Shown one piece after another: positions 48,559 through 51,867 of a stretch of 64,000 nucleotides of DNA. Positions within the stretch are counted from its first letter, which is position 1. Every line of letters starts with the position of its first letter. The notes under the pieces were generated by a model. The model saw only the letters and a list, made by a program, of their open reading frames with translations. It did not search any database and was not told the DNA's origin. Source of the DNA: an uncultured Bacteroidales bacterium (lineage in GTDB: Bacteria > Bacteroidota > Bacteroidia > Bacteroidales > WCHB1-69); contig CAMJXE010000006.1 in NCBI GenBank assembly GCA_946409645.1, forward strand, positions 1-64,000. The letters are read 5' to 3'. The translations under genes were made by a program, and so were the position numbers.

Positions 48559-49650
48559 TTATTTCCCGCTTTTCCTGCGATTGCATTCCTTGCAAAGCAT
48601 TTGGCAATTTTCTGCGATGGTGCGGCCGCCCGCGTGCCACGGAGTGATGTGGTCGGCCTCCATTTGTGAGATGTCGAAGTGCTGACCGCAGTCGGCGCAA
48701 AAACCGCCTTGCCGCTCGTAAGCCGACAATTTCTGCGCTTCGGTGAAAGCTCGAATAGACAAATATTTCTCTTTATGGGTGAGGAGATAAGGATAGATGC
48801 CCGTCTTTTTGGTCACATCATCGTCCAAAATGAGCCGCTTCACCTCGTTATCAATTTGTTGGGAATCAAATACTTTATCTTTGAACTGTTTGTAGAGCCA
48901 ACCCCAATCCACTCCTTTCATGATTTTCTTGCGTTCTTTGTTGGGAAGAAAAGAGGTCTCCACCCATGTGATGACTGCTTGGAAGAACTGCCACAACGGA
49001 GCCGCGCTTGCATCATGCTGATGATTAGACATATACACTTCGATATTGCCATCCGAAATCCAAGAGATAGCCGTCTCCAAATAGTCTTGACGGATGGCAG
49101 AACCCGTGAGGTAATCACTCCCGATTTTGGCTGCGGGTGCTCCGTTTTTGCTGAAATAGCGTTTCGCGTCACCCACCCAAGAACCTGCATACACCGCGTT
49201 TCGAAGTTCTTGATTCGTCAGTTCCTCACCTGCTATATTGATGGTTTTGAACCACTTGAGTTTCTCGCTGTCGGTGCCGCTACATATATAGACCTGCAGC
49301 TCGTAGCTGAGGATTTGCTCCTGCTCGTCGGGTTGTAGGTTGTGGAAATAGCGGAAATCGAATGCGAAGTCGCCGTTCACATACTGACAGATAGAGATGG
49401 TGCGTTGCTGACCGTCGATGATTTCAAAGGTACTGTCTTCTCGCACCGCCCAATACATTACATTCAGCGGAAAACCTTGCGTGAGGGTGTCGATGACGGC
49501 ATCGCGCTGTTTCTCCTTATAGACGAATTCGCGCTGGTAGGGAGGTCGCACATCCAGTTGGCCGCCGTAGGCCCGCACGCCTTTTTCGTTGTTGTCCTCG
49601 TAGCCCGCTGTCAGCTCGCGGACGGTGATTTTGTGTAATTCGATTTGCAT
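48559..49650 (-). CDS. DUF262 domain protein with C-terminal HNH endonuclease domain
   Basis: DUF262 motif FEIIDGQQRTISICQY; C-terminal CADCGQHFDISQMEADHITPWHAGGRTIAENCQMLCKECNRRKSGK. Confidence 0.92.
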   Translation of the reverse strand: MQIELHKITVRELTAGYEDNNEKGVRAYGGQLDVRPPYQREFVYKEKQRDAVIDTLTQGFPLNVMYWAVREDSTFEIIDGQQRTISICQYVNGDFAFDFRYFHNLQPDEQEQILSYELQVYICSGTDSEKLKWFKTINIAGEELTNQELRNAVYAGSWVGDAKRYFSKNGAPAAKIGSDYLTGSAIRQDYLETAISWISDGNIEVYMSNHQHDASAAPLWQFFQAVITWVETSFLPNKERKKIMKGVDWGWLYKQFKDKVFDSQQIDNEVKRLILDDDVTKKTGIYPYLLTHKEKYLSIRAFTEAQKLSAYERQGGFCADCGQHFDISQMEADHITPWHAGGRTIAENCQMLCKECNRRKSGK

Positions 49651-49653
49651 GAT

Positions 49654-50757
49654 TTATCGGTTTTGGTTGTATGATTCGGGGTCTTCCGCAGCTAATGGCA
49701 GGGTTGTTTCAGGTTGGTTGTATGATGTTGGTTGCTTTGACCCAACATCATCCATTCGTTTGCGCCGGCGGATGAGGATGCGGGAATAAACCCGTTTGTT
49801 GTTTAATACCGCGCAACCTCCCCTATCCTCAATATGTGGATAATAAGGAACTATTCCATAAAATTTATTTAACTTGCTATTTCCAGCACATATTCCTAAT
49901 ATTTCAAATTGATCGGGATTATATTTATCCATAAAAGTAATAGGTACGCCCATAAAATCGTTATAATCCATAGGTATATTAGCTGTTTTATCTACATTGA
50001 TAGCATCATAGTTGTCATATTTTGGATATTCTTCTTCATTATACATTTTATAGAGAATCAAATCTTCATGTCGTTTAGGTATTTCCAAATTGGTAAACCA
50101 GTTTACACCTGAAACACGAATCATTCCCTTTCGATGATCGCCTGCGGTGGCAGTATCTTCATATTTACTGAAAAAATGTGCTGCTCCACCCTTAAACCCA
50201 TATCCTAACCATACTTTATTGTCTCGGATGAGAGGAAAAAAATCTTTGTTAGTGATTGCATTTTGATTACCAATTATCACAAATTTCTTCTCATATTTCA
50301 TCAACTGTGCCACGTATTCTCGAAACAGCGAAAATGGAGGGTTGGTCACCACTATGTCGGATTGTTTCAACAGCTCAAGACACTCAGCAGATCGGAAGTC
50401 GCCATCTCCTTTAAAATAATGTATACCTATTTCCTCAGGATCAGGTACGCGATTTCCGTTACGATCACCGTAATACTCTAACCAAATAGCTTTTTCACTA
50501 TCATTTTGACTAAATAGGTCTCTGTTTTGACTTTTGTAGCATGTGGTAATCAGTTTTTTCAAACCTAACTGTTCAAAATTGTAACTAAAATAGTGGAAAA
50601 AATTGCTCACACGTGGGTCATCACAGTTACAAAGCACTGTCTTGCCCTTGAAATGAACTTTGTAGTGCCTCAATTCATTCTCTATATCCACGAGTTGAGT
50701 ATAAAATTCATCTTTTTTATTTTTATTTGCTGCATGAAGATTAATATTTCCTGCCAT
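49654..50757 (-). CDS. EcoRI-family adenine-specific DNA methyltransferase
   Basis: ORF 49654-50841, likely start 50757 (MAGNINLHAANKNKKDEFYTQL). VVTNPPFSLFREYV catalytic motif; CDDPRVSNFFHYF; overall EcoRI methylase family pattern. Confidence 0.9.
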   Translation of the reverse strand: MAGNINLHAANKNKKDEFYTQLVDIENELRHYKVHFKGKTVLCNCDDPRVSNFFHYFSYNFEQLGLKKLITTCYKSQNRDLFSQNDSEKAIWLEYYGDRNGNRVPDPEEIGIHYFKGDGDFRSAECLELLKQSDIVVTNPPFSLFREYVAQLMKYEKKFVIIGNQNAITNKDFFPLIRDNKVWLGYGFKGGAAHFFSKYEDTATAGDHRKGMIRVSGVNWFTNLEIPKRHEDLILYKMYNEEEYPKYDNYDAINVDKTANIPMDYNDFMGVPITFMDKYNPDQFEILGICAGNSKLNKFYGIVPYYPHIEDRGGCAVLNNKRVYSRILIRRRKRMDDVGSKQPTSYNQPETTLPLAAEDPESYNQNR

Positions 50758-50829
50758 ATTTGATTGATAGATTATCCATAAGCTATCAATCGTGAATATC
50801 GAATATAAAGAAAGGCGTGAACCATTTCT

Positions 50830-51001
50830 TTTCGCGTTCACGGGAGTCCGCTAAGAACCCGTATGCTACACTAAATGAATCCACGCCTGAGGCGCGAACA
50901 TCAACTAAGTGTAGCATTTGGAAACTATCACAGACCTACCGTGAACACCTATTATCGACTTTAAGAAAATCGTTTAGCGGACTTTTTTCTTGAACGCGAA
51001 A
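50830..51001. repeat. Nested inverted-repeat element (three perfect stems plus apical palindrome)
   Basis: TTTCGCGTTCA/TGAACGCGAAA (50830-50840/50991-51001), AGTCCGCTAA/TTAGCGGACT (50845-50854/50974-50983), ATGCTACACT/AGTGTAGCAT (50863-50872/50908-50917), CGCCTGAGGCG (50884-50894). Confidence 0.85.
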
Positions 51002-51008
51002 TAATAGC

Positions 51009-51042
51009 TAATGCTTTGGTTTATAATATGTTAATTACTTTT
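51009..51042. repeat. Direct repeat copy 1 flanking the zeta-toxin module
   Basis: TAATGCTTTGGTTTATAATATGTTAATTACTTTT; 3 differences from copy 2 at 51873. Confidence 0.9.
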
Positions 51043-51095: not shown

Positions 51096-51689
51096 TTATT
51101 CACAAATATTCGTTGCCCATTCAGGCATTTGCTCTACATAATGTTTGATAATTTCACCATCAGCAAAACGAACAAGCAGTTTTGCTTCAGAATTATCAAT
51201 GGAATTGTCGTACAAATATGCTCTATTTACCTTTCGTACAAGATATTTGCAGCGAGACAATGATTTCTGATAGCGAGATACAATTTTTGTAATAGGAACA
51301 TCATGGCCTCCTTTCATCACCCTATTGGCTATTCGAGCGGCATTAATGGTTGGAGAACTTGTACAAACAAAGAAAAGTCTGACAAAAAAACCAGCAGCAA
51401 TAGCCCTTTCTATATAATCAACTTTATCATTAGCTGACAACACTGTCTCAAATATCAGACTTTTTTGATCCGAGAGGCACTTTTCTCGCCAATCTTCACA
51501 ATATTTTACCGCTTTCATAATGGCCTCTTTGGAGTTCCAGTCGCCAAAACGTTCTTGTGCTACGTTATCCGGATTGATATATACAGAATTTTCCAACCAC
51601 TGATGATGCAATATCTTGCTTGTCACAGAGGTTTTGCCCGAACCGTTAGGTCCGGCTACCACAATCAGAACAGGTTTCCTATCTCCCAT
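51096..51689 (-). CDS. Zeta toxin family protein (AAA/kinase-type P-loop)
   Basis: ORF 51096-51734, likely start 51689. MGDRKPVLIVVAGPNGSGKTSVTSKIL Walker A; INPDNVAQERFG; zeta-like. Confidence 0.88.
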   Translation of the reverse strand: MGDRKPVLIVVAGPNGSGKTSVTSKILHHQWLENSVYINPDNVAQERFGDWNSKEAIMKAVKYCEDWREKCLSDQKSLIFETVLSANDKVDYIERAIAAGFFVRLFFVCTSSPTINAARIANRVMKGGHDVPITKIVSRYQKSLSRCKYLVRKVNRAYLYDNSIDNSEAKLLVRFADGEIIKHYVEQMPEWATNICE

Positions 51690-51867
51690 TAGCACAACCG
51701 TACTCTTGTTGATACATTTCTCTGATTTCGGCAAAATACCGCTTATGGGCTTCTTCGTTCGAGATACGCGCCTCCTCTGCCACCTCGTGCATGATGTAGG
51801 CCAACATCTCGTCGGTAGGTTCCTCCATATCGGTCAATCGATATTGGTTTATTTCTCGCTCAGACAT
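51679..51867 (-). CDS. Small protein overlapping the zeta-toxin start; putative antitoxin
   Basis: 62 aa acidic helical ORF whose 3' end overlaps the predicted toxin start by 11 bp. Confidence 0.65.
   Translation of the reverse strand: MSEREINQYRLTDMEEPTDEMLAYIMHEVAEEARISNEEAHKRYFAEIREMYQQEYGCANGR

Follow-up and report, generated by a model that had tools for sequence, protein, structure and literature searches.

Riboswitches and attenuators, such as the trp attenuator and the cobalamin riboswitch with its kissing expression-platform hairpin, offer the closest comparison to the element described here, being likewise structured and conserved 5' leaders in which one strand has alternative pairings and a hairpin governs the start of the gene. 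They differ from the present leader, which has no known ligand or leader peptide, appears to swap four strands, the very 5' end included, serves no single pathway and has no match in Rfam. Restriction-modification operons are controlled at the level of transcription by C proteins and reverse promoters. The element would resemble these in regulating such an operon, but it is an RNA leader and is common to unrelated genes. The Bacteroidetes RNAs of Rfam, 6S-Flavo, Bacteroid-trp, Bacteroidales-1, Bacteroides-1 and Flavo-1, listed in Weinberg 2010 (PMC2864571), have a similar taxonomic range and include some presumed leaders, and are distinct from it so far as the Rfam models tell. The accessible part of PMC8040213 lists thousands of unnamed RNA candidates, palindromic Bacteroidetes ones among them, and HMP2_1032 (106 nt, Bacteroidetes, near TonB) and HMP2_4205 are palindromic structured candidates there. 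In that part of the paper these two are not described as one family, and neither a leader or switch architecture nor a link to restriction-modification is given; fragments of the leader family may be among the candidates. A leader common to restriction-modification and surface genes was not found described in the literature. The Rfam check that the preliminary description of the locus had proposed gave no identification: in six scans of Rfam 15 (4227 models, gathering and permissive thresholds) no copy tested gave a match, the other matches being tRNA, DUF805 RNA or chance, elsewhere. The leader family belongs to no Rfam 15 family.

The window, i.e., the whole 64,000-nucleotide stretch of Bacteroidales DNA that was analysed, has at 50830-51001 an inverted repeat of three perfect nested stems. 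The flanking genes, which encode a zeta-toxin-like protein, a methylase and a GmrSD_N/HNH protein, are all on the minus strand, so that in the RNA sense the element directly precedes the methylase. Minus is also the functional strand of the element, which is longer than first noted, with limits at 51014 and 50809, and extends to the ATG at 50757 if the start-codon hairpin is counted. From comparison of sequences, we think it probable that the EcoRI-type methylase operon is controlled by the element acting in cis as a 5' leader RNA, and that it is one copy of a Bacteroidota leader family, found before accessory genes, with four strands, two partnerships and a putative switch. The features, in the order of the RNA, are as follows.

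51096-51734, minus strand: zeta-toxin-like protein.
50809-51014, minus strand: whole structured leader element, long class, 206 nt (covariance model R1, 103.8 bits, E 5e-28; fold z -6.8).
51007-51014, minus strand: e5, the conserved 5' strand GCATTAGC, whose GCATTA is the 5' side of T1 (sequence; T1 covariation).
50991-51001, minus strand: P1 5' strand TTTCGCGTTCA, partner 50830-50840, 11 bp (all 7 modelled P1 pairs with double changes; 98.7% paired).
50974-50983, minus strand: P2 5' strand AGTCCGCTAA, partner 50845-50854, 10 bp (98.4% paired; all 8 modelled pairs covary).
50956-50972, minus strand: P2b hairpin CGATTTTCTTAAAGTCG, within the 56-nt insertion (fold; helices 3 and 4 of the covariation analysis).
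50939-50945, minus strand: TTCACGG, possible pseudoknot strand, partner CCGTGAA at 50837-50843 (conserved; pairing 81.5%, shuffled mean 74.9%, maximum 78.3%).
50908-50917, minus strand: P3 5' strand ATGCTACACT, partner 50863-50872, 10 bp (helix 6, 93.5% paired).
50898-50903, minus strand: TGATGT, the a1 flank, pairs with the 5' end in T1 (T1 covariation).
50891-50899, minus strand: a1 GTTCGCGCC, partner of a2 (98.7% paired).
50879-50887, minus strand: a2 GGCGTGGAT, partner of both a1 and a3 (covariation with each).
50863-50872, minus strand: P3 3' strand AGTGTAGCAT (perfect stem with 50908-50917; covariation).
50845-50854, minus strand: P2 3' strand TTAGCGGACT (perfect stem with 50974-50983; covariation).
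50830-50840, minus strand: P1 3' strand TGAACGCGAAA (perfect stem with 50991-51001; covariation).
50809-50829, minus strand: P4 trailing hairpin, arms AGAAATGG and CCTTTCT (helix 8, 94.1% paired; fold).
50814-50822, minus strand: a3 GTTCACGCC, alternative partner for a2, located in the P4 loop and 3' arm (a2:a3 covariation above all 1000 shuffles).
50762-50791, minus strand: start-codon hairpin GATTGATAG ... CTATCAATC, 3' arm ending 4 nt before the ATG (59/75 leader loci, 4/35 leaderless methylase loci).
49654-50757, minus strand: EcoRI-type adenine DNA methylase PF13651, the gene proposed to be controlled (Pfam 458 bits; ATG at 50757).
48559-49650, minus strand: GmrSD_N/HNH protein, probable restriction partner in the same operon (Pfam; after the methylase in 71/72 cellular loci).

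Much of the architecture had been recognised beforehand. The sequence bears out the stems of 11, 10 and 10 bp (50830-50840/50991-51001, 50845-50854/50974-50983 and 50863-50872/50908-50917) and the asymmetric 56-nt insertion on the 3' side (50918-50973), and the alternative pairing of that insertion with the strand at 50836-50843 is present as the 11-nt pairing GTTCACGGGAG/CTACCGTGAAC (91%). The folding check that had been proposed for both strands gave -71.7 kcal/mol and z -6.8 for the minus strand and -58.9 and z -5.8 for the plus strand, none of 200 shuffles being as stable; for the complete leader up to the ATG, z was -7.2. The plus-strand T-run after the second stem, to which attention had been drawn, is incidental. 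Two further helices were considered and are not claimed: H0, CTATTATT:GATAATAG, is complementary, yet its covariation is not above shuffles, and an extended pairing of the 5' and 3' flanks beyond P0 was dropped for the same reason. A retron was also rejected, there being no reverse transcriptase gene beside the ncRNA, whose flanks are the zeta toxin, the EcoRI methylase and GmrSD/HNH.

In a genome of the same genus, the same element stands before a methylase of 50% identity; its ends are conserved, its middle is divergent in sequence but structurally conserved, and the upstream gene is DUF3990. The zeta-toxin neighbourhood named in the preliminary description is coincidental, as the relative G023 has DUF3990 in that place. 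The zeta-toxin-like protein at 51096-51734 (minus strand) has no obvious antitoxin partner listed beside it, and its place beside the leader is not conserved. Methylase-anchored searches found dozens more copies, which have in common GCATTAGCTATTATT, the nested rod and the trailing hairpin. A protein-independent search of 393 Bacteroidales genomes with R1 found copies in 42 genomes, many of them not adjoining PF13651, and the weaker R1 matches led to a shorter class of about 170 nt and its model, R2. With R2, copies were found in at least 99 of 295 Bacteroidales genomes, with at least 9 in the richest genome of that search; the window's own genome has at least 10 copies, the window copy included, Bacteroides congonensis has 11, and a phylum-wide sample has copies in at least 20 of 248 genomes, all of these counts being lower bounds because divergent members escape the models (e.g., L047 and L048, here counted as leaderless). 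Possible family members were seen in Fibrobacter, Ignavibacteria and Kiritimatiellia genomes (L343, L344, L345 and L346) by a search that found no copies in Pelagibacter, Falkowbacteria and Helicobacteraceae genomes, and in L344 a DNA-methylase-like protein lies about 530 nt downstream. The window copy as a DNA query had no match among phages and plasmids, long-class copies were not found on plasmids, and viral contigs with the 5' signature yielded only one full-length model match, a weak one (L312). The phage-borne PF13651 methylases are without the full leader.

In the long class, 94.7% of 3773 cells are paired, with 814 double-change cells against 230 in shuffled alignments and a covariation score of 0.60 against 0.22; in the short class, 94.0% are paired, with 825 double-change cells against 217 and a score of 0.62 against 0.19. 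Alignments fitted to a model inflate such pairing percentages and supply part of the covariation, but the control values are far off, and the slide and partner-shuffle controls mitigate the effect; when the structure was slid, pairing collapsed to 39-49%. G-U to A-C counts were 406:49 (8:1) and 262:53 (5:1), and this excess of G-U favours an RNA of the minus, gene-sense, strand. A covariance model of the homologues was built, as the preliminary description had suggested, and the stem decay without compensation that it named as a refuter did not occur. Compensatory changes on one strand accompany a conserved secondary structure, as expected of a leader RNA, and the comparison shows a conserved rod, P1-P2-P3, with an a1:a2 hairpin as its cap.

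The possibility was considered that the element acts as DNA, either as a MITE or REP-like repeat or as an attC-like folded single-strand recombination site that mobilises the next gene. Several copies per genome lie beside horizontally mobile genes, and structure is conserved more than sequence, as such an element might show, but G-U lies far above A-C and the position is inside a predicted transcribed leader. Further, blastn of the window's genome found a single copy of the window element with no second near copy, the model-found copies there are divergent save for one pair at 94%, and the integron core sites RYYYAAC...GTTRRRY were not seen at the ends by eye. A MITE or IS end was rejected, as near-identical copies with terminal inverted repeats were not found in that genome. 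A DNA element is very unlikely, and the recombination site or mobile-element relic suggested earlier is unsupported, as no signature of an IS or MITE is present, near-identical copies have not spread in the genome, and position and orientation to the start codon are fixed.

Among 29 R1 copies above 60 bits (our own count), 14 precede PF13651 and 8 precede other genes of restriction-modification type, namely Tsp45I with its own N6/N4 methylase, two MmeI-type, one N6/N4 methylase, two type III Mod, one D12 methylase and one ResIII-HNH protein. The rest precede sulfatase/phosphoethanolamine-transferase-like genes (3), a GDSL esterase (1) and small helix-turn-helix proteins (2), with 1 lacking an assignment. 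The short-class genes mostly encode lipoproteins, BspA-type proteins, T9SS-sorted proteins and SusC-like receptors, the last by N-terminal sequence. On the B. uniformis plasmid pBUN1 (L347, 2501-2719), the beta-lactamase gene blaMUN-1 (MUN-1) has a leader 51 nt 5' of it, itself behind the promoter motif TACTTTTG, and on a P. distasonis plasmid (L348, 2501-2686) a DarT toxin begins 17 nt after the element match; the leader there also precedes a gene weakly matching the DarT1-associated NADAR antitoxin. A small helix-turn-helix-like protein of 68-102 aa is repeatedly the first gene after the leader (L187, L188, L220, L277 and L333), and could be a regulator linked to the leader family.

Of 72 cellular loci examined (48559-50757 in the window; loci L005-L084), 71 have a GmrSD_N/HNH gene after the PF13651 methylase, leader or not, and the pair is probably a widespread restriction-modification unit. 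That the leader directly adjoins the methylase in many genomes might suggest that the RNA is part of the restriction-modification system, as a guide or cofactor for the methylase. The model, however, detects no leader at 35 of the 71 methylase-GmrSD pairs, which argues that the restriction machinery does not include the RNA, and the same RNA stands before unrelated genes. A guide or cofactor role is largely refuted by the leaderless pairs, and we give it next to no credence. Because the same leader and start-codon hairpin precede unrelated genes, the element behaves as a portable control module. The downstream genes have no common pathway, which is unusual for a metabolite riboswitch, and from this we conjecture that the signal is a general one or a protein, rather than a dedicated metabolite.

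In 114 of 120 copies (114:6) the gene that follows has the same strand as the element; the upstream gene is mixed (66:48), and the distance from the end of the element to the ATG is 47-53 nt in most long-class copies. Of 111 copies, 66 have TAnnTTTG, which we take to be the Bacteroidetes -7 promoter motif, 30-110 nt 5' of the element; the corresponding figures are 5.0 (maximum 12) for shuffles and 9 for the reverse strand. The motif precedes 10 of the 11 B. congonensis copies; upstream of the window copy no exact motif was seen by eye. A hairpin ending a median of 2 nt before the AUG was found at 59 of 75 long-class loci, regardless of the gene; the comparable figures are 4 of 35 for methylase loci that lack the leader and 1.1 for shuffled leaders. 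The arms of the hairpin covary (8.75 bp vs 4.16 shuffled). In short-class copies, a supported partner of a3 itself follows closely on its 3' side. Initiation in Bacteroidota depends on unstructured leaders more than on Shine-Dalgarno pairing, so the expected default effect of a hairpin abutting the AUG is repression. In ten loci (L198, L199, L201-L203, L219, L221, L223, L225 and L226), GCCTATG is conserved about 30-50 nt 5' of the element, with a stop almost at once after it (ATG TAA, ATG AAA TAA and similar); these arrangements are possibly minimal upstream ORFs.

These positions bear on the further proposal that a trans-acting small RNA is produced by termination or processing after a3/P4, gene position being incidental. 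The U-rich tract after a3, the P4 hairpin and a promoter motif of its own in most copies are what such an RNA would have, but the fixed place before a start codon, the 114:6 strand bias and the conserved AUG hairpin speak against it, and we judge it unlikely. The structured ncRNA or RNA-based regulator of the preliminary description is retained as a structured RNA, given the compensatory changes throughout and the strand-specific G-U excess, and given up as a free ncRNA in favour of a cis leader; the antitoxin RNA offered beside it likewise gives way, the copies lying for the most part 5' of a same-strand gene, with a promoter motif upstream of them and a hairpin at the AUG.

Within the leader we recognise four strands and two PARTNERSHIPS. 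The apical 3' strand, a2, has two partners, a1 and the trailing strand a3, and covaries with the latter too. The 5' end pairs either with a3 (P0, short class) or with the a1 flank (T1). For 51 distinct long-class triples, a2:a3 has 8.51 of 9 standard pairs, against 8.05 (maximum 8.25) for shuffled partners, and 6.86 Watson-Crick pairs against 5.93 (maximum 6.33). For the distinct sequence combinations of the short class, each helix exceeds all 1000 partner shuffles, with z of 8.5 for P0, 4.8 for T1, 11.9 for a1:a2 and 4.9 for a2:a3. Within the conserved 5' GCGTTA, the C and G covary with a3 as well as with the a1 flank, and divergent loci have, by eye, compensating versions of T1 (ACATTA/TGATGT, GCATTC/GAATGC and GCGCTT/AAGCGC). 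P0 is clear only in the short class; in the long class a3 sits in hairpin P4. The two incompatible partnerships appear to be the anatomy of a switch. As regards the mutually exclusive conformations of a riboswitch, alternative pairings are seen by covariation, and their coexistence as a four-way junction is possible; we infer either two alternative states (P0 + a1:a2 vs T1 + a2:a3) or a single four-way junction with a mobile branch point. Another explanation is a static leader, in which the rod guards the mRNA 5' end against decay or fixes a low level of translation, with no switching. That the rod is stable and close to the transcript's 5' end, and that the downstream genes have no common pathway, would suit it, but a2 and the 5' end each covary with two partners and a static hairpin needs none of that, making a static leader rather improbable, if less so than the other alternatives.

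For a switching leader, the most likely course would be that the hairpin at the AUG represses translation by default. A signal, be it a metabolite, a protein, or the dynamics of transcription and translation, would shift the equilibrium of the four strands, and repression would be relieved or deepened, the state of a3 and of the start-codon hairpin deciding whether a ribosome can start. Transcription attenuation or termination at the U-rich tract after a3 is a possible alternative or additional output. More tentatively, at somewhat short of even confidence, we propose a new, phylum-wide class of Bacteroidota RNA switch in which four strands (the 5' end, a1, a2 and a3) would exchange partners in the manner of a Holliday junction, giving portable control of expression before horizontally acquired genes for restriction-modification, toxins, resistance, lipid modification and surface proteins.

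From the four-strand exchange the behaviour of mutants can be predicted directly, and natural variants are numerous and ready to serve as test material; the element might also provide a regulated leader for Bacteroides genetic tools. The element would bring in a large RNA family that is present in common gut Bacteroides, Parabacteroides and Prevotella relatives and is overlooked by current annotation. Restriction-modification and other mobile genes in these bacteria would be under control at the RNA level, which would answer how newly arrived genes of this kind are silenced or timed.
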